Origin: Frankiales bacterium
Lineage (GTDB): Bacteria; Actinomycetota; Actinomycetes; Mycobacteriales; Jatrophihabitantaceae
Direction: 5' to 3'
Assembly (NCBI GenBank): GCA_025966315.1
Contig: JAOPUZ010000053.1
Span: 1 to 64,000, forward strand
DNA length: 64,000 bases
Each line of letters opens with the position of its first letter. The stretch's first letter is position 1. The position numbers and the translations under genes were made by a program. The notes under the pieces are model-generated. The model saw nothing but the letters and a program-made list of their open reading frames with translations, was not told where the DNA came from and searched no databases. Shown piece by piece: positions 2,950-54,319 of this stretch.

Positions 2950-3489
2950 CTATGCAGTTTGACGGTACCGCTGCGAAATGTCGTTGCAAGCTGCACAGGT
3001 TTCGGCCGGTATGACGCCCATTCTCATCAGATACCCAAACGCTATACAGCCGAGGCACACGGCAAAGATCGATTCCAGGCCTGCGGCGACCACCATGAGG
3101 GCCAGCAAGATCGTGGTCAGCAGGAACGAGCCGAAGGCGAACCAGGTCACCGCCGCTACCACCGTGACCACAGTGCCGACGGCCTGGGCGAAGCGCTTCG
3201 GCGGTCCCGGCACCAGTTTCGCCGACCCGAGCCGGGGCGCAATGACCCGGGTGGCCAGTTGCCCGAGCGGGCTCAGGGTCGGACCGCTGAGGACCCTGGC
3301 GATGAAGCCGAGCGCCAACGGCAGGGTCAACCAGTACCACCCGGTGGCCAGGGCGACGATCACGACCAGCAGGACGCCGGCCGCCACCGTCCGGGCGGCC
3401 TTCTCGTTGACCGGATTGGGGAACGTGAACAGTGTCGGCACATCCCCCGCAACGAGACCGTCGCGGGCGCTATTCCGGGATCTGTTCAC
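2950..3489 (-). CDS. DUF4395 domain-containing membrane protein
   Basis: A 179-residue protein with the DUF4395 pattern: FTFPNPVNEKAARTVA near the N-terminus, hydrophobic segments, and a C-terminal LEAIF-like region ending in a CxxC pair (ETCAACND). The cysteines suggest a redox or thiol role. In many actinobacteria this family occurs near thioredoxin-like or sulfur genes. It starts at GTG 3489, inside the second copy of a 16-bp duplication, and follows the decayed hydrolase downstream of mscR. The family call is firm; the function is unknown. Confidence 0.85.
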   Translation of the reverse strand: MNRSRNSARDGLVAGDVPTLFTFPNPVNEKAARTVAAGVLLVVIVALATGWYWLTLPLALGFIARVLSGPTLSPLGQLATRVIAPRLGSAKLVPGPPKRFAQAVGTVVTVVAAVTWFAFGSFLLTTILLALMVVAAGLESIFAVCLGCIAFGYLMRMGVIPAETCAACNDISQRYRQTA

Positions 3490-3515
3490 GCGCCTGAGCG
3501 TTCACGCGCCTGAGC
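3484..3515. repeat. 16-bp tandem duplication at a gene junction
   Basis: The sequence gttcacgcgcctgagc occurs twice back to back (3484-3499 and 3500-3515). On the minus strand each copy carries a GTGA overlap of stop and start. The duplication lies between the end of the hydrolase remnant and the start of the DUF4395 gene. Reading from the first GTG gives only a short frame, so the second copy supplies the DUF4395 start. Confidence 0.9.
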
Positions 3516-3866
3516 GCCCCTCGGTGAGGCCGGCCTGCTCATTGGCGATGGTCGTGTTTTCGCCGTGACCGGTATGCACAATGGTGTCGCCGGGCAGCCT
3601 GAACAGTTGCTCGCGGATCGAGGCCACGATGGCGTCGTGGTCGGAGTAGGACCGTGGATGGGGTCGTATCCGACGTCGGGATGCGATAGCCGCCAGTGCA
3701 CATCGTCGTCGGGGTGCAGCCAGATCGGTGCGTGGAATTTCGCCGCCAGATCGGGCGCGACGGTGATGTGGTCGTAGTGGGCGTGCGTGCTTTGTCGTCG
3801 ACCTCCCAGGTGCCGCCGTCCGGGCTGAACGTCCCGGACGTGAGGGCATGTTCAACATCGACCGGT
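3502..3866 (-). pseudogene. Decayed MBL-fold hydrolase of the mycothiol/formaldehyde pathway
   Basis: Three fragments of one metallo-beta-lactamase-fold hydrolase lie in three different reading frames. The first (about 3853-3793) reads ALTSGTFSPDGGTWEVDD, the normal N-terminus. The second (about 3788-3655) reads THAHYDHITVAPDLAAKF and APIWLHPDDDVHW, which holds the HxHxDH metal motif. The third (3651-3502) reads SYSDHDAIVASIREQLF and HTGHGENTT, the normal C-terminus. About 40 residues are missing after the first fragment and about 50 after the second, including the TPGH and GDTLF metal-binding parts. No in-frame ATG precedes the first fragment. Intact homologues of about 210 aa normally sit directly downstream of mscR. 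The gene cannot make an active enzyme as it stands. Confidence 0.85.
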
Positions 3867-3867
3867 A

Positions 3868-4953
3868 TCAGAACAGAACCACTGAACGCAGCACGTCGCC
3901 GGCCTGCATCTTGACGAAGGCCGCCTCGATCTCGTCCAGACCGACGGTCTCACTGACGAACGCGTCCAACGGCAGACGCCCTTGCAGGAAAAGGTCGATC
4001 AGCATCGGGAAGTCCCGGCTGGGCAGGCAGTCGCCGTACCAGGACGACTTCAGCGAACCGCCACGCCCGAACACCTCGGCCAGCGGAAGTTCGATCTTCA
4101 TGTCCGGAGTCGGGACACCAACCAGGACCACGGTGCCGGCCAGGTCCCGCGCGTAGAAGGCCTGCTTGTACGTCTCGGGACGGCCGACCGCTTCGACAAC
4201 GACGTCGGCACCGAAGCCGTTGGTGATCGTGCGGATGGTTTCGACCGGATCCACTTGGCCGGAGTTGACGGTGTGCGTGGCCCCGAGCTCGAGCGCCTTC
4301 GCCAGTTTGCGGTCGTCGAGATCCACCGCGATGATCTTGGCGGCACCGGCCAGTCGCGCACCGGCGATCGCCGCGGCACCGACGCCACCGCAGCCGATCA
4401 CCGCCACGGAATCGCCACGGCTCACGTTGCCCGTGTTCACGACCGCGCCGATGCCCGCCATCACGCCACAGCCGAGCAGTCCGGCTACCGCTGGGGGTGC
4501 AGCCGGGTCGACCTTGGTGCATTGGCCGGCGGCGACGAGGGTCTTCTCGGCGAAGGCACCGATACCCAGCGCCGGGCTGAGTTCGGTGCCGTCGACCAGC
4601 GTCATCTTCTGCTTGGCGTTGTGAGTGGCGAAACAGTACTGCGGCCGGCCCCGTAGACAGGCCCGGCATTGGCCGCAAACGGCCCGCCAGTTCAGGATCA
4701 CGAAGTCACCCGGCGCGACTTCGGTCACGCCTGGCCCGACGGCCTCGACGATGCCCGCCGCTTCATGGCCGAGCAGAAAAGGGAAATCGTCGTTGATGCC
4801 ACCTTCGCGATAATGCAGATCGGTGTGGCAGACCCCGCAGGCCTGGATCTGGATCACGGCCTCACCAGGCCCGGGATCCGGGATGACGATCGTGGTCAAT
4901 TCGACCGGGGCACCTACGCTGCGGGCGATTACGCCCTGCACCTGCTGACTCAT
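3868..4953 (-). CDS. mscR: S-(hydroxymethyl)mycothiol dehydrogenase (zinc alcohol dehydrogenase, class III type)
   Basis: The enzyme oxidises the formaldehyde-mycothiol adduct (and may reduce S-nitrosomycothiol) with NAD in the cytoplasm. The 361-residue protein has the catalytic zinc motif [14 protein letters not shown] near residue 39, [12 protein letters not shown], the structural zinc cluster [15 protein letters not shown], and the Rossmann motif [12 protein letters not shown]. The N-terminal [19 protein letters not shown] and the C-terminal [14 protein letters not shown] are characteristic of the mycothiol-linked branch. Length is normal. The gene usually forms a pair with an MBL-fold hydrolase; here that partner is broken (3502-3866). 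Its presence implies a mycothiol-making actinobacterium. Confidence 0.92.
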
Positions 4954-5103
4954 AACGTCACCGCCTCTTCGCGCAAGCGCTCATCGCTACCATTCGCTCT
5001 CGGTTGCCGTTCGAAACCAGCTCGTTCCTCGCGATCCTCAGTCATGGATACGTCTATACACGACCGTCGGTCAACGCTGGACGGGGTGGGTTGAACAGAA
5101 ATT

Positions 5104-5144
5104 CCGGGAGTCATCCGGCGCGATGAGCGCCGGATGACTCCCGG
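5104..5144 (-). terminator. Rho-independent-type hairpin downstream of gltA
   Basis: A perfect 18-bp inverted repeat (arms 5104-5121 and 5127-5144) with the loop gatga lies 24 bp beyond the gltA stop. There is no T tract, as is common in high-GC actinobacteria. It separates gltA from the mscR promoter region. Confidence 0.85.
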
Positions 5145-5168
5145 GATCGGTGGAACGGAGCGTGCAGG

Positions 5169-6476
5169 TCAGCGCTGGCTGGCCGGTACGTACGGGCGCT
5201 CGGTCGGCCCGGTGTACAGCTGACGCGGACGGCCGATCTTGGTCTGCGGGTCGTTGATCATCTCGTGCCACTGGGCAATCCAGCCCGGTAGCCGCCCGAT
5301 CGCGAACAGCACGGTGAACATCTTGGTCGGGAAGCCCATCGCGCGGTAAAGCAGGCCGGTGTAGAAATCGACGTTCGGGTACAGCTTGCGGCTGACGAAG
5401 TAGTCGTCGTTGAGTGCGTACCCCTCGAGCTCGATTGCGATGTCGAGCAGGTCATCGCGCTTGCCCATGGCCTGCAGCACCTCGTCGGCGGTCTTCTTGA
5501 TGATCGCCGCGCGCGGGTCGTAGTTCTTGTAGACCCGGTGCCCGAAGCCCATCAGCTTCACGCCCTGCTCTTTGTTCTTGACCCGCTCGACGAACGACTT
5601 GACGTCACCACCGTTGTCACGGATGCCCTCAAGCATCTCGAGCACCGCACTGTTGGCACCACCGTGCAGCGGGCCGAACAGGGCGTTGATGCCAGCCGAG
5701 ACCGAGGCGAACAGGTTGGCCTCGGACGAGCCGACGAGGCGGACGGTCGAAGTCGAGCAGTTCTGCTCGTGATCGGCGTGCAGGATGAACAGCAGGTCGA
5801 GCGCCTTGACCACCGCGGGGTCGGCCACGTACGGCTCGGCCGGGTTGCCGAACGTCATGCGCAGGAAGTTCTCGACCATGCCGAGCGAGTTGTCCGGGTA
5901 CAGCAGCGGCTGTCCGACCGACTTCTTATAGGCGTAGGCCGCGATGGTCGGCAGCTTGGCCAGCAGCCGGATGGTCGACAGGTCCACCTGCTCGTTGTTG
6001 AACGGGTCGAGCGAGTCCTGGTAGAACGTCGACAGCGCCGACACGGCACTGGACAGCACCGGCATCGGGTGCGCGTCGGCCGGGAAGCCGTCGAAGAACC
6101 GCTTGAGGTCCTCGTGCAGCATCGTGTGGTGCGTGATGCGGTCCTCGAAGGCCTTCAGTTCATCGGCGGACGGCAGGGAGCCGTAGATGAGCAGGTAAGA
6201 CACCTCGGAGAACGTGGAGTTCTGGGCGAGGTCCTCGATGGAGTAACCGCGGTAACGCAGGATGCCCGCGTCGCCGTCGATGTAGGTGATGGCCGAGGAA
6301 CACGCGGCGGTGTTCACGAAACCCGGGTCGTAGGTGACCAGTCCGGTCTTGGCCAGCAGCTTGCTGACGTCGGCAGCTGACGAACCTTCGGTGGCTGGCA
6401 GGATCGGCATCGGCAGGTCTTCGCCGGAGGCCGGGTGGAATACGGCGGTGGCAGCGCTCGTGGCGGTGTCCGTCAT
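5169..6476 (-). CDS. gltA: Citrate synthase
   Basis: Condenses acetyl-CoA and oxaloacetate to citrate, the entry step of the TCA cycle. The 435-residue length is that of the hexameric type II enzyme. The catalytic parts are present: LHADHEQNCST with the first His, GFGHRVYKNYDPRA with the second, and PNVDFYTGLLYRAMGFP with the Asp. The CoA-binding FGPLHGGANSAVLEML segment is intact. It starts at ATG 6476, preceded by a gagggag ribosome binding site. It is monocistronic, ends in a strong hairpin at 5104-5144, and is divergent from the DUF5709 gene. Confidence 0.96.
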   Translation of the reverse strand: MTDTATSAATAVFHPASGEDLPMPILPATEGSSAADVSKLLAKTGLVTYDPGFVNTAACSSAITYIDGDAGILRYRGYSIEDLAQNSTFSEVSYLLIYGSLPSADELKAFEDRITHHTMLHEDLKRFFDGFPADAHPMPVLSSAVSALSTFYQDSLDPFNNEQVDLSTIRLLAKLPTIAAYAYKKSVGQPLLYPDNSLGMVENFLRMTFGNPAEPYVADPAVVKALDLLFILHADHEQNCSTSTVRLVGSSEANLFASVSAGINALFGPLHGGANSAVLEMLEGIRDNGGDVKSFVERVKNKEQGVKLMGFGHRVYKNYDPRAAIIKKTADEVLQAMGKRDDLLDIAIELEGYALNDDYFVSRKLYPNVDFYTGLLYRAMGFPTKMFTVLFAIGRLPGWIAQWHEMINDPQTKIGRPRQLYTGPTERPYVPASQR

Positions 6477-26325: not shown

Positions 26326-26350
26326 CCGGCGCCCGCCCCGATTCGGTCAG
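26322..26350. terminator. Small inverted repeat spanning two convergent stops
   Basis: Arms ctgaccg (26322-26328) and cggtcag (26344-26350) enclose a 15-base loop and include both stop codons. The stem is short, so termination is only suggested. Confidence 0.4.
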
Positions 26351-27420
26351 CCTGGGAAGACCGTGTCCAGCGCGCTGCGCTGGTCGGCGTGATCGCGATT
26401 CCGGCCGCCGGCCTTCGCCGCGTACAGCGCACGGTCGGCGGCGGCCAGCGTGTCAACCGGCGACCGGTCGCCGACACAGCAGGCCACGCCCGCTGAGAAC
26501 GTGATCTGCGGACGCAAGAGCGCCCAGGAACTGTGCAGTCGCTCCAGCATGGAGATCGCCTGGCGTTCTGAGGTCGCCGGCAGCAGCAAGGCAAACTCCT
26601 CGCCGCCATAGCGCGCGGCGTAGTCGTTGAAGCGCAGGCAGCTTCGGAGTACAGCGCCGAAATCGGCCAGCACCCGGTCGCCCGCCGCGTGACCGAAAGT
26701 GTCGTTGAGGTTCTTGAAGAAATCCAGGTCGCAAATCACCAGCGCATCACCCGGCCGAACGGTGGCCAGCCGCAGATCAAGGTCGCGGCGATTGGCGAGG
26801 TTGGTCAGCGCGTCCACGTGCGCGGCCCGGCGCAATTCATCAGTCATCCGTGCCTGTTGCGCGACCAGCCCAGCCAGCAGTTCGGCCAGCACCAGCCAGA
26901 TCGCGACCGCGATGACCAACCGGGCGGCGAGTGGGCTGGCCCAACCACCCCAGGCGGCTATCCAGGCCGCCACGGCGACGGGCGCGAGCCGCACACTGGT
27001 GCCGCGCGGCTGGCTCAATCCGACGTACGCGAACGAGAGCATGAACAAGCCGGTGTATGAGGACCCGAGCCCACCGGCAAAGACGCCAAGCGCCGCCAAG
27101 GCGCCCCACATCAGCATCGGAAAGATGAGCGAGCTGCTTCGGGGCATTCGCGACCAGGGCACCAACAAGCTGATCAGCAGCAATGCGGTTATGACCGCTG
27201 TTATTACCCCCAGCACTTGCCAGGTGTGCCGGTCGGTGGTCAGCAACGGCAAGGTGGTTATGGTGACCACGCCGGTCACGAACAACAGCAGGCGGCCAGC
27301 CGCATAGGGCTCCCAACCCTCGCCCGTCCAACCGGCAAAACGACGAAGGGCAAGCCGAACCCGACCGGAGTCCGTCTCGCGGCGAGACCGCCGTTTGTCA
27401 TATTTGGTGCGGTTGCTCAC
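26347..27420 (-). CDS. Membrane diguanylate cyclase (GGDEF domain)
   Basis: A 357-residue protein from GTG 27420. Residues 30-195 hold about six membrane segments without a recognised sensor domain. The GGDEF domain (about 200-350) has DALTNLANRRDLDLRL, VICDLDFFKNLNDTFGHAAGD and the active site YGGEEFALLLP, so cyclic-di-GMP synthesis is expected. Metal and substrate residues appear intact. The gene is monocistronic and convergent with the SRPBCC gene. A second c-di-GMP protein with GGDEF and EAL domains is at 50443-53124. Confidence 0.9.
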   Translation of the reverse strand: MSNRTKYDKRRSRRETDSGRVRLALRRFAGWTGEGWEPYAAGRLLLFVTGVVTITTLPLLTTDRHTWQVLGVITAVITALLLISLLVPWSRMPRSSSLIFPMLMWGALAALGVFAGGLGSSYTGLFMLSFAYVGLSQPRGTSVRLAPVAVAAWIAAWGGWASPLAARLVIAVAIWLVLAELLAGLVAQQARMTDELRRAAHVDALTNLANRRDLDLRLATVRPGDALVICDLDFFKNLNDTFGHAAGDRVLADFGAVLRSCLRFNDYAARYGGEEFALLLPATSERQAISMLERLHSSWALLRPQITFSAGVACCVGDRSPVDTLAAADRALYAAKAGGRNRDHADQRSALDTVFPG

Positions 27421-45746: not shown

Positions 45747-46637
45747 GTGATCCCTTTGCCCACGGCGTCGCCGGTAGTGACTCGTGGTGCGCATTTCTAC
45801 CTGTCCCACGAATTGTCCTACCAGGACGCCGGACCGGCGAACGGGCCGATTGTCCTGCTGCTGCACGGCATGGCGTCGGACAGCACCACCTGGCACCGGG
45901 CCATCCTGGATCTCGCCGGCCGCGGCTTCCGGGTGCTGGCGCCGGATCTGCTGGGCCATGGCCGCTCCGCCAAACCCGTCGATACCTACGAGCTGCTGGA
46001 TTTTTCGGCCAGTATGTACTCACTGCTCAGTGCCGTCACCGACATTGCGGTCGAGCCCGGTCGGCGGGTGGTCGTGGTCGGCCATTCGTTCGGCGGCGCG
46101 GTCGCAATGCAACTCGCCCACAGGCATCCGGAGCTCATTTCGCACCTGGTACTGGTATCCGCAGGCGGTTTGGGGCAGAAGGTGCACCCGCTACTCCGCG
46201 CGGCGACGCTGCCCGGCGCACAGTCCGTCGTGCGGTTGCTCGCCAACCGCCGTACCGCGGCGATGTACCGGCACCCGCGCCTGCATCGCTCGTTGCGGTT
46301 GAGTCCGGACGCGGTGTTGAGCCTGAGCCGGGCCGGGCGCGGGCTGTCCAGTCCGGAATCACGCTCGGCCTTCTTCCAAACCCTGCGGATGGCGATCGCG
46401 CCGACCGGTCAACGCGGATCGATGCTCGAACTCGAAGACGTCTCGCTGACGCTGCCGACCCTGATCATCTGGTCCGCCGACGACCGGGTGGTGCCAGTCG
46501 CCCATGCCCACGACACGCACGCGCACCTGAGCCGGAGCACTTTGCGAATCTTTCCCGGCTCGACCCATCAACCGCATCACCACTCGTCACGCCGCTTCGT
46601 CGACGCTCTCACCAGCTTTCTCACCGACGAGCGGTAG
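45747..46637 (+). CDS. Alpha/beta hydrolase
   Basis: A 296-residue alpha/beta-fold hydrolase from GTG 45747. It has the oxyanion HGMASDSTTWH, PDLLGHGRSAKP, the nucleophile elbow GHSFGGAVAMQL, the acid in IIWSADDRVVPV and a late His in GSTHQPHHH. The substrate is unknown. It starts 19 bp after the zinc-finger gene, so a small operon is likely. It is convergent with the enoyl-CoA hydratase gene. Confidence 0.9.
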   Translation: MIPLPTASPVVTRGAHFYLSHELSYQDAGPANGPIVLLLHGMASDSTTWHRAILDLAGRGFRVLAPDLLGHGRSAKPVDTYELLDFSASMYSLLSAVTDIAVEPGRRVVVVGHSFGGAVAMQLAHRHPELISHLVLVSAGGLGQKVHPLLRAATLPGAQSVVRLLANRRTAAMYRHPRLHRSLRLSPDAVLSLSRAGRGLSSPESRSAFFQTLRMAIAPTGQRGSMLELEDVSLTLPTLIIWSADDRVVPVAHAHDTHAHLSRSTLRIFPGSTHQPHHHSSRRFVDALTSFLTDER

Positions 46638-46638
46638 C

Positions 46639-47394
46639 TCAACGGAAACCGGCGATGCGCCCGTCCGTATCGGTGATCGGGTAATCCGAGCCGGCCTCGA
46701 ACTGCAGCCCTTCGGCTAGCGGAAGTTGTTCGGCCGCGCGGTAAAGGTCCTTGTACGCCAGCAGGGATTGGTAACTGTTGGCCGACACCGTGGTCACGAA
46801 AGTCTCGACCGCGGCGGCCAGCTCGGCCCGCGGTACGGCCTCGGCAGCCAATCCCCACTGGGCGGCCTGCGCCCCGGTGAAGGTGCTGGCGGTGTAGGAC
46901 AGCTGACGGGCGCGAGCCATTCCGACCAGCCGCGGCAGCCGCTGGCTCATACCCCAGGTCGGTCGCAGTCCCCATTTGGCGTGGGTATCGCCGAACACCG
47001 CTTCGTCGGCGGCGATGATCACGTCACAAGCCAGCGCCAGCTCGAGCGCGCCGGTGAAGCAAAACCCGTTGACCTGGGCCACTACTACGGCTCGGGCCGC
47101 CTGGATCCTGCTGATGACGGCCCGGCCGGGGATATCGAGCAGGTCACCGATCTTCCCGCCGACCAGCTCCAGGTTGCCCAGCGCCTTGAGGTCGACTCCC
47201 GCGCTGAACGCCCGGCCTTGTCCGGTGAGCACGATCACGCGAACGTCGTCATGGCCACCGATCTCGTCGAAGGCGGCGGCCAGTTCGGTCAGCATCGACA
47301 GCGTGATCGCGTTCATCGCTTCGGGCCGGTTGAGCGTGATGGTGGCCAGCGGCGCGGCGACGTCGAGTTGAATTGCGGTGTAGGTAGCAGGCAT
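46639..47394 (-). CDS. Enoyl-CoA hydratase/isomerase family protein
   Basis: A 251-residue crotonase-fold protein. It has TITLNRPEAMNAITLSM, VLTGQGRAFSAGVDLKAL (first oxyanion segment), NGFCFTGALELALACDVIIA (second) and EAVFGDTHAKWGLRPTWG. One Glu of the hydratase pair appears replaced near GALELAL, so it may be a hydratase or isomerase of another acyl-CoA. It is monocistronic. Confidence 0.9.
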   Translation of the reverse strand: MPATYTAIQLDVAAPLATITLNRPEAMNAITLSMLTELAAAFDEIGGHDDVRVIVLTGQGRAFSAGVDLKALGNLELVGGKIGDLLDIPGRAVISRIQAARAVVVAQVNGFCFTGALELALACDVIIAADEAVFGDTHAKWGLRPTWGMSQRLPRLVGMARARQLSYTASTFTGAQAAQWGLAAEAVPRAELAAAVETFVTTVSANSYQSLLAYKDLYRAAEQLPLAEGLQFEAGSDYPITDTDGRIAGFR

Positions 47395-47484
47395 GCGGTC
47401 AGCGTCGCATCTGGATCCAGATCATGAAAGTTACGCTCGGGTAGCCGTACCGAAATCTGAGCGCTGTGTATACGCTGCCTGACC

Positions 47485-48453
47485 ATGTGGGCTTATGCGG
47501 TCAGCGCTCCGCGCCAATTGAAAAAGGTCGAAATCCCGACGTTGGAGGCCAGCGATCTGGCCGATGGGCAGGTATTGATCCGCATGCTTGCCGGCGGAAT
47601 CTGCGGTAGTGATTTCTTTTCTTTCGAAGGCCACGGCGCGGCCAAATTGGCTGATCACGGTGGCGTCGATGCCCGCGCCGGGCACCCCTCGCACGAGGCG
47701 GTCGGTGAGGTGCTGGCCTCGCGGAATCCGAAGTTCGAGGCTGGTGCCCGCGTCGTCGGCTGGGCTTCGGAGCTGAACGGACTGGCCGAACGGGTCATCT
47801 CGCTGGGCTCGGATCTGGCCATCGACTCGTCGAACTTGCCCCCGGCGGTGTCGGTCATGCTGCAACCGCTGGCCTGTGTGTTGTACGCGGTCGACCAGAT
47901 TCCGGACGTAGCCGGCGCCGATGTGGCGGTAATTGGCCAGGGACCTATCGGCATTCTTTTCAGCCATGTTCTTAAAAGCCGCGGCGCCCGAAAAGTAACC
48001 GGCATTGACCTGGTCAATCGGCAGGACGTGGCCCCTCATTTCGGCGTGGACGAGCCGTTGCACATTTCCAGTGAGCGCTGGGCGGCGCAGTTGAGCAATG
48101 CCGAGCGGCCACAGATCGTGGTCGAAGCGGTCGGCCACCAGGCCACCACCCTGGGCGACGCGATTCGCGCGGTCGCCCCGCTGGGGCAGATCTACTACTT
48201 CGGCATCCCGACCGTGACGCCGTTCCCTTTCGAGATGTTGCCGTTCCTGGCCAAGAACCTGACACTGCGGTCCGGATTGACGCTCAACCGCTCGCACTAC
48301 CTGGACCTGGCCGGCCAGTACCTGGCCGCAAACCCGGGCCTGGCCGATGTCTACGTGACGAACACCTTCGACATCGCCGACGTCCAGAAGGCGCTCGAAA
48401 CTGCCTCCGTACCGGCCCAGGGCCAGCTCAAGGTCACGCTGAACTTCGGCTGA
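47485..48453 (+). CDS. Medium-chain alcohol dehydrogenase family protein
   Basis: A 322-residue MDR protein. The catalytic zinc region is ICGSDFFSFEGHG with HPSHEAVGEVL, and the cofactor motif is VAVIGQGPIGILFSHVLKS. The four-Cys structural zinc loop is absent, as in sorbitol-dehydrogenase-like and threonine-dehydrogenase-like branches. The substrate is unknown. It is divergent from the enoyl-CoA hydratase gene. Confidence 0.87.
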   Translation: MWAYAVSAPRQLKKVEIPTLEASDLADGQVLIRMLAGGICGSDFFSFEGHGAAKLADHGGVDARAGHPSHEAVGEVLASRNPKFEAGARVVGWASELNGLAERVISLGSDLAIDSSNLPPAVSVMLQPLACVLYAVDQIPDVAGADVAVIGQGPIGILFSHVLKSRGARKVTGIDLVNRQDVAPHFGVDEPLHISSERWAAQLSNAERPQIVVEAVGHQATTLGDAIRAVAPLGQIYYFGIPTVTPFPFEMLPFLAKNLTLRSGLTLNRSHYLDLAGQYLAANPGLADVYVTNTFDIADVQKALETASVPAQGQLKVTLNFG

Positions 48454-48588
48454 TCGACCCGTAGGACTGAGCGCGGCACCCTGGGCGCGAACGCGCTGCG
48501 TACACGACCGATCACCCTAAGTGGTTTGGGTCACATTTTTTATGAACTTGTCGCGCGATGTTAAATCAGTGTGATCTTCTGTTGATGC

Positions 48589-48646
48589 GGGTCGGCATGT
48601 AGCACGCTTCACCAGGGGGGCCGACCCTCAGCCACGGAGGGCGACA
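48589..48646 (+). promoter_or_regulatory. Structured 5' leader before the subtilase gene, possible RNA switch
   Basis: Two hairpins that exclude each other can form. Stem 1 pairs gggtcggc (48589-48596) with gccgaccc (48620-48627). Stem 2 pairs ccctc (48625-48629) with gaggg (48637-48641), which holds the ribosome binding site of ATG 48647. The two share bases 48625-48627. Stem 1 would free the binding site and stem 2 would hide it. No known riboswitch class is recognised; the switch is inference from pairing. Confidence 0.4.
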
Positions 48647-50452
48647 ATGTCTGTACAGGATGAACACAGGAAGACTCGGCTCAATCGGCACCGGTCGCTA
48701 CGCGGTCTGGGGATCGCCGCAATCATGGCGCTCACGGTCAGCACCTGTCTCGGTATCGTCGGGCCCACGACCGCCGCCAACGCGGCCACCCCGAAACCAG
48801 CTCCGGTTCCAGCTTCCCTGGTCGGCGGCCTGCTGCAGACCGTCCAGGGCCTGACCGAGGGCGTCACCGGACTCGTCGACGACAGCCACTGGGGTGACGC
48901 CTCGGCCGACAAGGCCGCCAAGGGCAGTGACGGCAAGAACCATCCCGACGTCGACCCCGGCTCGCTTTACACCATCGAGAACGCCATCGGCGCGCGCAAC
49001 GTCTGGATGGCGAAGGACTCGAGTGGACGCCAGATCACCGGGCAGGGGGTCGGCGTGGCCCTTCTCGACTCGGGCACCGCACCGGTCGACGGCCTCAACG
49101 GAGCCGGAAAGCTGACCTACGGCCCGGATCTGTCCATCGAATCGAACGGCTCGCTCACCGATCAGGACACGTTCGGCCACGGCACCCACCTGGCCGGCAT
49201 CATCGGCGCGCGCGACGCCGCAACGCTGGACGCGAAATCCATCCCCAAGCTGTCGCCGTCGGTGCAACTGGGAGTCGCCCCCGACTCGAAACTGCTCTCG
49301 ATCAAACTCGCGACCAGCGACGGCAGCACCGATGTCAGCCAGATCGTGGCGGCCCTGAACTGGATCACCGAGCACCAGACCAGCGCGGACGGCACCCGCA
49401 TCCGGGTCGTCAACCTGTCGTTCGGTACCGATTCGCTCCAGCCGTACCAGGTCGACCCGGTTGCCGCCGCGGCCGAGAACGCCTGGCGCCACGGACTCGT
49501 CGTGGTCGTCTCCGGCGGGAACGAGGGTCCCACCGCCGGCCGGCTCACCGATCCAGCCATCGATCCGTACGTGCTCGCGGTCGGATCCTCCGACGGTGGC
49601 AACACGCCGACCGGCTGGAGCCACCCGACGGTGGCCTCGTACAGCAGCAGCGGCACCGCGTCCCGACACGTGGACCTGCTGGCGCCGGGTCGCTCAGTCG
49701 CATCGTTGCGAGCCCCCGGCTCGTTCGTGGATACCGAGCACCCTGAGGGCCTCGTGTCCGGTGACACCGCCGGTCGATTGTTTCGCGGCAGCGGCACCAG
49801 CCAGGCCGCGGCTGTCGTCTCGGGAGCGGCCGCGCTGCTGCTGCAGGCGTACCCGAACCTCACCCCCGATCAGATCAAAGCCGCATTGGTCAGCACCGCG
49901 ACACCGATGACGGCCAATCCGGTCAACGCCGGCTCCGGTCAGCTGAATGTGTCCGCCGCGATGACGAAGGCGGCCACGCTGGCCCGCGCCCAGACCGGCT
50001 TGCTCGGTTCCGTGCTCGGCACACTGGGCGGTTCGGCACCCAACACCACCCAGAGCTTCCCGATCGCCACCGGACAGGGCTCGATCGATGCCGCTCGCGG
50101 CGGTTACTCGCTGGTCGACGCCGACAACAACGTGCTGTCCGGCGAGGTGGACGTCCAGGGCAACCCGTGGCTGCCGGCCACTTGGTGGGCCGCGTCCTCA
50201 TCGCTGACGTCCTGGTCCGGCGGCCTGTGGCTGGGTCAGATCTGGACCGGCAACGGTTGGCAGCCGGCAGGCTCGGACGCCGCATCCGCCCGTTGGTCCT
50301 CCGCGCGCTGGTCCTCGGCCCGCTGGAGCGATGCCGGTTGGGACAGCGCCCGCTGGTCTTCGGCCCGCTGGTCCTCGGCCCGCTGGTCCTCGGCCCGCTG
50401 GAGCGACGCATCGTGGGACAGCGCCAGGTGGTCTGACGCCCGATGGAGCTGA
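48647..50452 (+). CDS. Secreted S8 family serine peptidase with SARW-pentad C-terminus
   Basis: A 601-residue subtilase. It has an N-terminal signal (GIAAIMALTVSTCLGIVG, cleavage probably after ANA). The triad is visible: Asp in VGVALLDSGTAP, His in FGHGTHLAGI, Ser in GSGTSQAAAVVSG, with the oxyanion Asn in VSGGNEGPTAG. The last 56 residues are 11 pentads of the SSARW type, with SDAGWD and SDASWD breaks. Such Trp-pentad tails occur on actinobacterial S8 proteins and have no known role. The stop overlaps the start of a GGDEF-EAL gene by 10 bp, so the two are coupled. Confidence 0.92.
   Translation: MSVQDEHRKTRLNRHRSLRGLGIAAIMALTVSTCLGIVGPTTAANAATPKPAPVPASLVGGLLQTVQGLTEGVTGLVDDSHWGDASADKAAKGSDGKNHPDVDPGSLYTIENAIGARNVWMAKDSSGRQITGQGVGVALLDSGTAPVDGLNGAGKLTYGPDLSIESNGSLTDQDTFGHGTHLAGIIGARDAATLDAKSIPKLSPSVQLGVAPDSKLLSIKLATSDGSTDVSQIVAALNWITEHQTSADGTRIRVVNLSFGTDSLQPYQVDPVAAAAENAWRHGLVVVVSGGNEGPTAGRLTDPAIDPYVLAVGSSDGGNTPTGWSHPTVASYSSSGTASRHVDLLAPGRSVASLRAPGSFVDTEHPEGLVSGDTAGRLFRGSGTSQAAAVVSGAAALLLQAYPNLTPDQIKAALVSTATPMTANPVNAGSGQLNVSAAMTKAATLARAQTGLLGSVLGTLGGSAPNTTQSFPIATGQGSIDAARGGYSLVDADNNVLSGEVDVQGNPWLPATWWAASSSLTSWSGGLWLGQIWTGNGWQPAGSDAASARWSSARWSSARWSDAGWDSARWSSARWSSARWSSARWSDASWDSARWSDARWS
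50281..50448. repeat. 15-bp coding tandem repeat (11 units)
   Basis: Related 15-bp units such as gcccgctggtcctcg follow each other through the 3' end of the subtilase gene. They encode the SSARW pentads. A longer period is visible: the order SSARW, SDA(G/S)W, DSARW occurs twice. Confidence 0.88.
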
Positions 50453-53124
50453 AACACGCCCGTCCACGGCGGCAGCTGACTGCCGGCCAGAAGACGGTAC
50501 TGCTCAGCTTGGCCTTGGCGCTGGCCGCCGCGGGCTTGACGCTGCAGGCCCCGTCCTATCCGTTGATCGCGCTGCCGGCTTCGCAGCCGGTGATCATGGT
50601 GGGGCTGGCGGCGCTCTTCCTGCTGGCTGAGCTCGTGTTGCTGAACGTCGAGTTCCGCCGGCATGCGTACTCGTTCACGCTGGCCGGCGTACCGCTCGCC
50701 CTCGGCATGATGCTCTTGCCGCCGCACGTCTTCGTGATCCTGCGGCTGGTCGGCAGTCTTGCCGCGTTCCTGATCCAGCGAATAAGCCCGGCCAAAGTGA
50801 CCTACAACCTGGCCGCCTATGGCTTCGAGGCCGCGCTGGCCGCGACCGCCGCCGGCTGGCTCGGCGGCTTCGACCCGCACTTGGACCTGGTCGGCGCGGC
50901 CATCGTCCTCGGGCTGCTGATCGTCGGCGACCAACTCATGACCCAGCTCGTACTGACCCTGATCCGCATGCACAACGGCGCGCTGAGCCGCCGCGAAACG
51001 TTCAGCCTGGTCGCCGAAGCGGCTGGGTTGAGTGTGGCCGCCAGCTCGTTCGCCATGGTGATCGTGTTGCTGTTGAGCGACGGCATCCTCGGCATCATGC
51101 TGATGGTCGTGCTGATCCTGGCGTCGGCGGCGATCTACCACGGCTATGCGGCAATGACCCGTCGGCACAAATCGCTGGCCCTGGTGCACGATTTCGTCAC
51201 TGGCGGGGTCGGCGCCGAGTCGGTCGAAGCACTGGGCGAGCAGCTGCTAACCCGGATCCGGGGGCTGCTGCGGGCCGCGCGGGCCGAGTTGGTGGTGTTC
51301 GACACCGGGATCGGCAACGGCTCGCCGCGGACCCGCGTGAACCGACCACATGGAACCGACACCGCGGACGGCGGCGAGGTCGCCACGCTCGTGCTGTCAA
51401 TCGGTGAAGACGAGATCCTGCAGGTGTCGCACGGCACCCTGGACCGCGCCGACTGGCTGACCAGCCGCGTGCTCAGCCAATCCGAATCGATCGTCGCGGG
51501 ACGTAACACCAAGGACCCCGGCCTGCGCCGGTGGCTGTCCGATCACGACTACCGCGACGCCATGATCGTGCCGCTGAGCATGTCGAGCCAGCTCACCGGA
51601 CTGCTGACCGTCTCCGATCGCCTCGGTGAAACCAGCACGTTCGTCGCTGACGATCTCAGCGTGCTGCAGACTCTGACCGGGCACCTGGCGATTGCGATCG
51701 GCACCGCCCGGCTGGTTCAACGACTGGGCTACGACGCCACCCACGACGCGCTCACCGGACTGGCCAACCGATCGTTCCTGGTCCATCGAATTCGCGAGAC
51801 GCTGGCCACGACGCAGGCGAAGGTCGGCGTGCTGCTGCTGGATCTGGACTCGTTCAAAGAGGTCAATGACGCGCTCGGTCATCATGTCGGCGACCAGCTG
51901 CTGCGGGTGGTGGCCGAGCGGCTCACCGCCAGCCTGCCCGACACGGCCACGGTAGCCCGGCTCGGCGGTGACGAATTCGCCGTGCTGATACCGGATATCA
52001 CGGCCGGGTTGGCCGGTGGGCGCGCAATCGCCGACCAGATCGCGTTGGCCTTGAGCCGGCCCGCCAACTTCGACGAAGCGGTCATCACGCCCGAAGCCAG
52101 CATCGGCGTGGCCATCGGCTCGGACGCCGACCGCACCGCTGACCTGTTGCGACAAGCTGATACCGCGATGTACGCGGCCAAAACCAGCGGCCAGCACGTC
52201 GCCGTCTACACCCCCGATCTCGATCGCGGCCGCGCAGAGCGGCTGGCGCTACTCGCTGACCTGCGCATCGCCCTGGACACCGCCCCGGAGCAGCTCGTCC
52301 TGCATTATCAGCCCAAAATCGAACTCAGTCGCGGGGACGTCACCGGGGTCGAGGCTCTGGTGCGCTGGCACCATCCGACCCTGGGCATCCTGGGGCCGGA
52401 CAGCTTCATCCCGCTCGCGGAATCCACCGGCCTCATCGAGCGGCTCACGCCGCACGTGCTGGACCAGGCGCTGACCGATTGTGCGCGCTGGCTGGCCAGC
52501 GGAAACGACATCAGCGTGGCGGTGAACGTGTCGGCGCGCAATCTCGATGATCCGGAACTGCCGAAGCGGGTACGGCAGGCCCTGATCCGGGCCGGTGTAC
52601 CGGCGCGGAACTTGATCCTGGAGATCACCGAAAGCAGCGTCATGGGCGACGCGCAGCACACCGAGCCGGTCCTGCATCAGCTTGCCGCACTGGGGATTTC
52701 GCTGTCGTTGGACGACTTCGGCACCGGGTATTCCAGCCTTTCCTATCTGCAGCGACTGCCCGTGCACGAGGTGAAAATCGATCGGTCGTTCGTCATCGGA
52801 CTGTCGGGGGAGAACCCCGAGAACTGCCGCGCGTTGATCCGCAGCATCACCGGTCTCGGCTCGAACCTCGGCCTGCGAATCGTGGCTGAGGGCATCGAGT
52901 ACCCCGAGCACCTGAGCGAACTGCGTGAACTGGGCTGCCACATCGGTCAGGGCTATCACATCAGCCGTCCGCTGCCGGCCGCCGACATCACGCAGTGGCT
53001 GGCCAGTCTGCGATCGAACCTGCAACCGAGACTGCAGCTGGTGGGACAGCTGCCGGTCTCGATCTCAGCCGCGCCGCCGGTGTCGATCAAGCCGCTGGCC
53101 GGTCCTGCTAGTCGGGGACGATGA
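50443..53124 (+). CDS. Membrane GGDEF-EAL protein (dual c-di-GMP cyclase/phosphodiesterase)
   Basis: An 893-residue protein. About six to eight membrane segments span 20-230, a GAF-like region about 245-420, GGDEF about 435-600 (DALTGLANRSFLVHRI, RLGGDEFAVLIPD) and EAL about 615-870 (GVEALVRWHHP, LDDFGTGYSSLSYLQ, VKIDRSFVIG). Active residues of both domains look intact, so it may make and break c-di-GMP. The RxxD inhibitory site before GGDEF is absent. ATG 50443 lies in the subtilase stop region. The 3' end overlaps the convergent dehydrogenase gene by 17 bp. Confidence 0.93.
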   Translation: MELKHARPRRQLTAGQKTVLLSLALALAAAGLTLQAPSYPLIALPASQPVIMVGLAALFLLAELVLLNVEFRRHAYSFTLAGVPLALGMMLLPPHVFVILRLVGSLAAFLIQRISPAKVTYNLAAYGFEAALAATAAGWLGGFDPHLDLVGAAIVLGLLIVGDQLMTQLVLTLIRMHNGALSRRETFSLVAEAAGLSVAASSFAMVIVLLLSDGILGIMLMVVLILASAAIYHGYAAMTRRHKSLALVHDFVTGGVGAESVEALGEQLLTRIRGLLRAARAELVVFDTGIGNGSPRTRVNRPHGTDTADGGEVATLVLSIGEDEILQVSHGTLDRADWLTSRVLSQSESIVAGRNTKDPGLRRWLSDHDYRDAMIVPLSMSSQLTGLLTVSDRLGETSTFVADDLSVLQTLTGHLAIAIGTARLVQRLGYDATHDALTGLANRSFLVHRIRETLATTQAKVGVLLLDLDSFKEVNDALGHHVGDQLLRVVAERLTASLPDTATVARLGGDEFAVLIPDITAGLAGGRAIADQIALALSRPANFDEAVITPEASIGVAIGSDADRTADLLRQADTAMYAAKTSGQHVAVYTPDLDRGRAERLALLADLRIALDTAPEQLVLHYQPKIELSRGDVTGVEALVRWHHPTLGILGPDSFIPLAESTGLIERLTPHVLDQALTDCARWLASGNDISVAVNVSARNLDDPELPKRVRQALIRAGVPARNLILEITESSVMGDAQHTEPVLHQLAALGISLSLDDFGTGYSSLSYLQRLPVHEVKIDRSFVIGLSGENPENCRALIRSITGLGSNLGLRIVAEGIEYPEHLSELRELGCHIGQGYHISRPLPAADITQWLASLRSNLQPRLQLVGQLPVSISAAPPVSIKPLAGPASRGR

Positions 53125-54157
53125 CTGCTCGTCCGGCAACGGTGCCCTCGGCCAGCCGGCGATAAGCCTCGGCTGCCTGGCTCAACGGGAAAGTCGTGAC
53201 GTGCGGGCGAATCAGGCCCCGCGCGGCGAGGTCGAGCACCTCGACCAGCTCCGGACGGCTGCCCCAGTAGGTGGTCTGGATCGACACCTCATGACGCATC
53301 GATCCGAACGACACCGGCAACGTCCCGCCGGCGATCCCGACGATGCTCAGATCCCCCAGCGAGCGGGCGACCGCTGCGGCGACGGCGAGGGTTGCGTCCG
53401 AACCGACGAAGTCGAGCACCACGTCGGCGCCGATCCCGTTCGTCTGTCGCATGATCGACCTGACGGTGTCCTCGTCCGCGGTCAGGGCCAGATCCGCACC
53501 GTTGTCCAGCGCTAGTTGCAACGCCTCAGGGCGGCGATCGACCACGATGATCCGGCTGGCCGTGGTCGCCTTGAGAATCTGAACGGCCAGGTGACCCAGG
53601 CCGCCGGCGCCGATGACGACCGCGGTGCTGCCGGGGGTCAATTTGGGCCAGGACCGGCGCACCGCGTGGAATGGAGTCAGCCCGGCATCGGTCAAGGGTG
53701 CCGCGGTCGCCGGTTCCAGCCCGGCCGGCAACGGCACCAGGTGCCGGGCCGCGGGGACGAGCATGAACTCGGCCATCCCACCGTCCAGGCCGAGGCCGCC
53801 GCCACCGCCACGCACCGGTGCGCCGGCCGGGTTCTCGCAGTAGGTTTCCACGCCGGCCCGGCAACGTGGGCAGGTCCCGCATCCCCAAGGCCCGTACACG
53901 GCGACGGCCTGGCCGAGTTCCAGGCTGGTGACACCATCACCCAGCTCGTGAACCCAGCCGGCGTTCTCGTGCCCGAGCGTGAAGGGCAGCCGCCACGGCA
54001 GCCGGCCGGCGTCGTAGTCGTGCATCAAATGCAGGTCCGAATGGCAGGCGCCCGCCCCGCCGACCCGGATCACCACCTCACCAGGCCCGGGACGGGGCTC
54101 ATCGAGCTGGACGAAATCGGGGTCCGACTTCCAGGCCGCCAGGCGCAATGCGTACAT
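53108..54157 (-). CDS. Zinc-dependent alcohol dehydrogenase (NAD(P))
   Basis: A 349-residue MDR enzyme with catalytic zinc (GACHSDLHLMHDYD, GHENAGWVHELG) and the structural cluster CGTCPRCRAGVETYC. The cofactor motif is VVIGAGGLGHLAVQIL. It resembles bacterial secondary or aryl alcohol dehydrogenases. The start MYALRLAAW is at ATG 54157. It is divergent from the LLM cluster across 162 bp and may share its regulation. Confidence 0.92.
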   Translation of the reverse strand: MYALRLAAWKSDPDFVQLDEPRPGPGEVVIRVGGAGACHSDLHLMHDYDAGRLPWRLPFTLGHENAGWVHELGDGVTSLELGQAVAVYGPWGCGTCPRCRAGVETYCENPAGAPVRGGGGGLGLDGGMAEFMLVPAARHLVPLPAGLEPATAAPLTDAGLTPFHAVRRSWPKLTPGSTAVVIGAGGLGHLAVQILKATTASRIIVVDRRPEALQLALDNGADLALTADEDTVRSIMRQTNGIGADVVLDFVGSDATLAVAAAVARSLGDLSIVGIAGGTLPVSFGSMRHEVSIQTTYWGSRPELVEVLDLAARGLIRPHVTTFPLSQAAEAYRRLAEGTVAGRAVIVPD

Positions 54158-54177
54158 GGTCGATACCCTCCTCGTCG

Positions 54178-54199
54178 CAGACAGTGTGACTCACGTCTG
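54178..54199. promoter_or_regulatory. Weak candidate operator between divergent dehydrogenase and LLM genes
   Basis: Arms cagac (54178-54182) and gtctg (54195-54199) flank a 12-base partly symmetric centre (agtgtgactcac). It lies 21 bp upstream of the dehydrogenase start. Regulation is inferred from place and symmetry only. Confidence 0.25.
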
Positions 54200-54319
54200 T
54201 AAAACAGCCGATCTAACATCGAAGCCGGACGCGGCCGTGTTCAAACAATCACGACCGGAATGACCGACAAGCACGCCCCGTTATGCACCGCAACCCTGAC
54301 TCGTGCGTGAGGAGGCTCC

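Follow-up and report, generated by a model that had tools for sequence, protein, structure and literature searches.

The window, by which we mean the whole stretch of 64,000 nucleotides analysed here from a Frankiales bacterium (contig JAOPUZ010000053.1), carries on its forward strand a gene for a predicted secreted S8 subtilase with a tryptophan repeat tail, followed by a gene for a membrane sensor with a GAF-GGDEF-EAL output. The ATG of the sensor gene overlaps the stop codon of the subtilase gene by 10 bp (50443-50452), both genes lying on the + strand, and the gene downstream of the sensor (53108-54157) is convergent, so that the unit consists of two genes. The overlap and the anatomy of the two proteins are as described in the initial annotation, judging from the ORFs, the Pfam matches and the sequence, the start given there (48589) lying upstream of the gene. 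Rfam, searched over 46600-54300, returned nothing at gathering scores, hence no known riboswitch family there. The features of the locus are the following.

48636..48641, + strand: Shine-Dalgarno-like GGAGGG of the subtilase gene, 5 nt before the ATG (sequence reading)
48647..50452, + strand: secreted S8 subtilase with Trp-pentad tail, 601 aa, ATG start (ORF; Pfam PF00082, E 4.8e-39)
49040..49909, + strand: S8 catalytic domain, residues 132-421 (Pfam Peptidase_S8, E 4.8e-39)
50072..50284, + strand: conserved pre-tail linker (TGQGSIDAARGG...GEVDVQG.PW...), common to the Trp-tailed S8 family (alignments)
50285..50449, + strand: Trp-pentad tail of SARWS units, residues 547-601 (translation, unit counts)
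50426..50431, + strand: putative weak Shine-Dalgarno-like AGGTGG within the tail, 11 nt before the sensor ATG (sequence reading)
50443..53124, + strand: membrane sensor with GAF-GGDEF-EAL output, 893 aa (ORF; Pfam GGDEF and EAL)
50485..51171, + strand: MASE9-like multi-TM sensor domain, residues 15-243, the part common to all paired loci (28-row alignment, profile matches)
51421..51699, + strand: GAF-like domain, residues 327-419 (Pfam GAF models, E 2e-6 to 5e-5)
51736..52194, + strand: GGDEF domain, residues 432-584, RLGGDEF motif intact (Pfam E 9e-40; sequence)
52270..52971, + strand: EAL domain, residues 610-843, EAL and DDFGTG motifs intact (Pfam E 7e-71; sequence)

The subtilase and sensor of the window

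The subtilase presents, in order, a hydrophobic signal-like N-terminal segment, the Peptidase_S8 domain, which is its sole Pfam domain, the linker and the tail, in which a Trp recurs every five residues and SARWS accounts for eight of the units. It scores 134.8 bits against the Peptidase S8 family (PF00082) for a cut-off of 21.8, and alignment with 108 relatives shows the triad aligned, with Asp, His, the oxyanion Asn and Ser all in place. Assignment as a pentapeptide repeat protein (PF00805) was rejected, S8 being the only Pfam family found at E <=0.1. The T7SS mycosin model (TIGR03921) is the nearest NCBIfam subtilase model, but the match of 131.8 bits falls short of the cut-off of 278.75 and this identity was rejected also. 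Mycosins possess a C-terminal TM anchor, whereas the window subtilase has the Trp tail in its place. A plasmid search with the subtilase retrieved ordinary Bacillaceae S8 peptidases and nothing else, and the AlphaFold model computed from the one sequence has a mean pLDDT of 38.4, unusable for any conclusion on fold.

The partner is predicted to be a bifunctional GGDEF-EAL protein from its Pfam matches and its RLGGDEF, EALVRW and DDFGTG motifs. The signal-like N-terminus of the one protein and the multi-TM region and intact motifs of the other agree with the earlier proposal that the subtilase is exported and its partner a membrane protein with GGDEF and EAL domains. The multi-TM N-terminus of the window sensor has no match in Pfam, MASE9 included; the Pfam MASE9 model (PF20972) matches eight of the 28 aligned relatives at E <=0.01 (best 1.1e-6) and does not match the window copy, for which reason the domain is named MASE9-like only. 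K118 and N122 of the window sensor are invariant in the 28-row alignment of this domain. A PDB profile search with the membrane domain gave a chance match only (E 0.28), and the AlphaFold model of residues 1-426 from the one sequence (mean pLDDT 42.1) is unusable for a fold conclusion. A LapD-type receptor, described as an inactive HAMP-GGDEF-EAL protein with a LapD/MoxY periplasmic domain (PMC13090378), was rejected as an identity for the window sensor, where the motifs are intact and Pfam finds GAF, GGDEF and EAL only.

Elsewhere, the window genome encodes a second, distant MASE9-like GGDEF-EAL protein of ~690 aa with no Trp-tailed neighbour (G000:C23:42155-42787, L202), while in the window itself a separate ORF at 26347-27420 on the − strand has a GGDEF domain match (E 1e-14).

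Pairing of Trp-tailed subtilases with MASE9-like sensors in actinobacteria

In the first search 41 genomes were queried with the subtilase and the neighbourhoods of its homologues were read. Every close homologue has a tail of this kind and, L036 apart, a GGDEF-EAL partner. One genome from another family (G031) holds distant homologues with the same Trp spacing in other letters (TGSSW, YGSSW, SATSW, AARNW); where the contig extends far enough, they are followed by multi-TM proteins, some of which are not c-di-GMP enzymes, and on partners of this type Pfam finds histidine kinase and SpoIIE-phosphatase outputs and, weakly, MASE9 in the membrane region. When the tail region was made into a profile, matches came from 39 of the 393 genomes searched in the class and from 37 of 396 in the phylum, with the window genome in both counts. 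From a subset of the matches, picked by a long open frame and a low E-value, 60 regions (class) and 20 (phylum) were examined and their genes scored with S8-domain and membrane-domain profiles.

Seventy-two Trp-tailed S8 genes were found from the S8 side; seven with <700 bp of downstream DNA (L037, L045, L097, L099, L104, L122, L137) were excluded. Of the remaining 65, 58 adjoin a MASE9-like sensor gene, which lies downstream in the same orientation in 57 cases and is divergent in one, and in the phylum survey, where a sensor <=2.6 kb away was accepted so that tandem S8 genes count with a shared sensor, the figure is 25 of 27, several of the surveyed genomes being closely related so that the loci are not all independent. 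Finds from the sensor side or from contig scans (L142, L176, L177, L178, L183, L189, L194, L206, L208) stand outside the 58/65, and L245, at a contig end, outside the 25/27. No sensor adjoins nine of the Trp-tailed S8 genes (L036, L085, L098, L106, L110, L119, L121, L246, L250). For the controls, loci were drawn from relatives, some of them genomes with the pair: no MASE9-like ORF lay near S8 genes without a Trp tail at any of 20 loci with flanks of ~5 kb, nor at any of 20 with flanks of 1.5 kb, some genes being common to both control sets. Pairing at 58/65 and 25/27 against 0/20 is thus well supported as exceeding chance. The suggestion in the initial annotation that the gene pair be looked for in other actinobacteria therefore yields a conserved unit, and the same controls identify the Trp tail, then a possible wall or partner contact, as a defining part of it.

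The placement of the sensor varies: it may lie downstream with an overlap, downstream after a gap, upstream in tandem (L037) or divergently (L105, L142), the median distance from the S8 stop to the start of the sensor TM domain being 58 bp. Translational coupling and a fixed ratio of products, put forward earlier as the point of the arrangement, had been deduced from the overlap; the weak AGGTGG is the one Shine-Dalgarno-like site before the second ATG, and since gene order varies between loci we regard coupling as incidental. The window pair itself conforms to the definition of the cassette, a period-5 Trp-tailed S8 gene next to a MASE9-like sensor (S8 profile 1e-145, sensor profile 2e-79, the window being among the training rows of both).

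Of two contig scans, the first gave no relative and the second gave L142, a divergent pair from an uncultured Cellulomonas sp. The S8 profile excluded L143 and L144, from the second scan, as Trp-tailed S8 genes, and L139-L141, taken as tail matches, have neither an S8 nor a MASE9-like ORF and are chance matches. An origin of the orphan subtilase L110 and the orphan sensor L191 by the splitting of a duplicate of the L096 pair was considered and dropped: the S8 nearest to L110 is L098 and not L096, though the sensors are sisters.

Exchange of outputs among the sensors

Matches to the membrane-domain profile were found in 20 of 23 chosen genomes. Among 40 membrane-domain loci not earlier known to be paired, eight had a Trp-tailed S8 gene, each with its own word, L179 continued the tail of L045, broken by a contig end, and L193 had a small secreted-looking SHTWE-repeat protein; some 30 had no Trp-tailed neighbour in the surrounding DNA examined, and the MASE9-like domain can therefore serve without one. 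The outputs of 89 paired sensors, called by single-sequence probes and for some by Pfam, are GGDEF-EAL in 58, a HisKA-HATPase histidine kinase in 19, SpoIIE in three and no known enzyme in nine, one of these nine (L134) being cut by a contig end. In this last class the next genes, tested at L046, L123 and L178, have HisKA_3 and HATPase_c domains, and the nearby regulators tested (L044, L123) have receiver and LuxR-type domains, as response regulators do. A set of sensors of ~470 aa without a recognized enzyme shares a conserved C-terminus (L123, L124, L131, L176, L177, L178, L044, L046); the next gene, where tested, encodes a NarL-type kinase, and LuxR-type regulators lie nearby at some of these loci.

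A quick tree of 101 sensor membrane domains, with SH-aLRT support only and some long branches, requires at least nine changes of output against a mean of 30.0 when outputs are shuffled, and 13 changes between the paired and unpaired states. The histidine kinase, SpoIIE-phosphatase and separately encoded kinase outputs found with the same subtilase and membrane-domain pair speak against c-di-GMP as its essence, as first supposed. GGDEF or GSDEF is present in 54 of the 58 GGDEF-EAL partners and EAL in 50, some of the others being variant or cut by a contig end, while the S8 catalytic Asp, His, Asn and Ser are found in 107, 108, 108 and 109 of the 109 Trp-tailed rows respectively, the remainder being gaps. 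With catalytic residues intact on the protease and output sides, both halves look active.

The tail words

The longest run of units in a tail has a median of 13 (range 4-27), and non-canonical units also occur. Gly, Ala or Ser occupies position −3 to the Trp in 88%, with each tail weighted, while the other letters vary by locus to give locus-specific words such as SARWS, GWSWH and GANWY. Within tails the median pN/pS, at 0.68, is no more than moderately low; synonymous differences exceed non-synonymous ones in 57 of 76, while the ratio is at least 1, indicating no such constraint, in 19 of 76. At L183 the values are pN 0.011 and pS 0.514.

The words are often kept among orthologues, the majority word agreeing in 17 of the 47 orthologue-like pairs, compared with 26 of 4144 distant ones. 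Paralogue pairs within a genome have it in common in 0 of 80 cases, which is not different from the background of 0.6%. At L258 three S8-sensor pairs follow one another, with the words GWGWD, GWSWN and GWSWH, of which GWSWH and GWGWD are retained in a related array from a second genome (L260); L257, like L258 and L260, is an array of successive subtilase-sensor pairs in a common orientation, in which every pair has a tail word of its own. In two of the four cases of a sensor preceded by two S8 genes (L247, L253), both genes carry the same majority word. Word distance correlates with sensor-domain distance once S8 distance is removed (partial r 0.25, permutation p 0.001), and it tracks S8 distance with sensor distance removed as well (partial r 0.23), so that common ancestry explains part of the correlation.

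One repeat protein occurs without a protease. At L193 (5905-6279, − strand) a secreted-looking protein of 124 aa with four SHTWE repeats spaced ~13 residues apart is encoded directly upstream of an otherwise unpaired MASE9-like GGDEF-EAL sensor (3354-5855), and may be a protease-free ligand.

Discussion

The subtilase and the sensor form a two-gene unit that is very probably for signalling, and its earlier characterization as possibly undescribed agrees with the literature to the extent that searches of open-licence papers in PMC found neither an account of the pairing nor one of the SSARW tail, nor any use of the word MASE9. The parts are known families, and it is their combination that was not found in print in those papers. 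With slightly better than even confidence, we favour an outside-in signalling cassette in which the protease or its tail is the input to the cognate MASE9-like sensor. An exported, apparently catalytically intact subtilase carries tandem, locus-specific Trp pentapeptides at its C-terminus; the MASE9-like domain would recognize the protease or tail, or a fragment from the protease's own proteolysis, at the cell surface, and would then switch whichever output is fused to it. In the window this would be the GAF-GGDEF-EAL module setting c-di-GMP; at other loci the role would fall to a histidine kinase or SpoIIE phosphatase, or to a separately encoded HisKA_3 kinase and its LuxR-type regulator. That the membrane domain would receive the signal and the fused domain give it out is suggested mainly by the swapping of outputs while the pair stays. 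The signal would run inwards, with the tail as putative specificity element and with physical contact between the partners; proteolysis may be needed, and the ligand would be the protease, its tail or a fragment. Several observations weigh against this reading: the nine Trp-tailed S8 genes that lack a sensor next to them, the many MASE9-like sensors that lack a Trp-tailed neighbour, the moderate constraint within tails, the share of common ancestry in the word correlations and the background-level result for paralogues.

The main rival, in our view an unlikely one, runs in the opposite direction, the membrane protein reading cytoplasmic c-di-GMP or another state and switching the secreted protease in the manner of LapD and LapG. 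The unit is indeed like the LapD/LapG and DvhD/DvhG pairs in that the gene of a membrane protein with c-di-GMP domains adjoins that of an exported protease, and there is precedent in a periplasmic protease and the c-di-GMP receptor encoded with it, a Trp of the receptor docking into the protease (PMC13090378); retention of the S8 catalytic residues throughout would suit such control. LapD, however, has a periplasmic domain and a catalytically inactive GGDEF-EAL module (PMC13090378), whereas GGDEF/GSDEF is intact in 54 and EAL in 50 of the 58 partners here, and what the sensors conserve is the multi-TM domain, with no sign of a large extracytoplasmic domain. Often, moreover, the output consists of a histidine kinase or SpoIIE phosphatase, and these are effectors and not regulators of a protease. 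The present unit further departs from LapD/LapG in that its protease is a repeat-tailed subtilase, its membrane domain MASE9-like and its outputs variable.

Alternatively the subtilase might cut its own tail into diffusing Trp pentapeptides or longer multimers, read as an autocrine pheromone by the cognate MASE9-like sensor. We consider this doubtful, although the near-identical tandem words, locus-specific and differing in synonymous codons (L183), speak for it, as do the identical words of two S8 genes on one sensor at L247 and L253, the SHTWE protein of L193 before its otherwise unpaired sensor, and the analogy to the subtilisin-family Kex2 and repeat precursors (PMC2515848, PMC7329392). 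Set against these are the non-canonical units within tails and the fact that a structural repeat would look alike, while L193 is a single case whose repeats are not 5-spaced. The stricter proposal that every paralogous cassette in a cell has a different five-letter word, released by its own subtilase to its own MASE9-like receptor, is likewise improbable. Least of all do we credit a mere operon of convenience, with the Trp tail anchoring an exoprotease at the wall or membrane and the co-expressed sensor unrelated: the short intergenic distances (median 58 bp) would fit, and Trp-rich tails could partition to membrane or wall, but the link outlasts changes of gene order and swaps of output and is specific to Trp-tailed S8 genes, which makes this highly improbable.

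Several known systems resemble the favoured outside-in cassette in part. In the MASE-domain diguanylate cyclases a multi-TM MASE domain takes input from a partner protein, as the multi-TM domain of the sensor would here; DgcE, for example, takes input through its multi-TM MASE1 domain from RdcA/RdcB (PMC6510439). The RdcA partner is a GTPase, whereas here the partner is an exported protease and the domain is near MASE9. The cassette also recalls the two-component and co-component cassettes, in which an extracytoplasmic partner and a membrane sensor are found in an operon. To our knowledge, these have no catalytic protease with a locus-specific tail. A subtilisin-family protease, a tandem repeat peptide and a cognate membrane receptor are the elements of the likeness to Kex2 and alpha-factor. 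Kex2/alpha-factor and the Kex2-processed repeat proteins are fungal, and there the protease and the repeats are separate proteins.

For MASE-type membrane sensors, a cognate exported protease with a locus-specific repeat tail would provide a concrete and testable candidate input, applicable to a whole class of them, and the Trp-tailed subtilases, themselves a large family, would thereby have a function. Should the tail prove to be the signal, these genes would constitute a modular family of extracellular peptide signalling in actinobacteria, with words legible from the genome and receptors open to rewiring towards c-di-GMP, kinase or phosphatase outputs. If each subtilase does release its own tail, private peptide channels would feed interchangeable outputs (c-di-GMP, phosphorelay, SpoIIE).

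Two minor observations concern the tail sequences. In one subgroup (L040, L041, L083, L088, L251, L252) a conserved C-terminal segment, F.TAFWG.R......GE.SE, comes after the tail and may serve as an end cap. Two genomes from the genus of the window each have a short ORF made up of SARW repeats and standing by itself, at L047 (5169-5324, + strand) and L048 (5446-5613, − strand), with the common ending TTVDSVEL; a subtilase was not seen beside either, L048 being at a contig end, and each is possibly a micropeptide or a relic of a tail.
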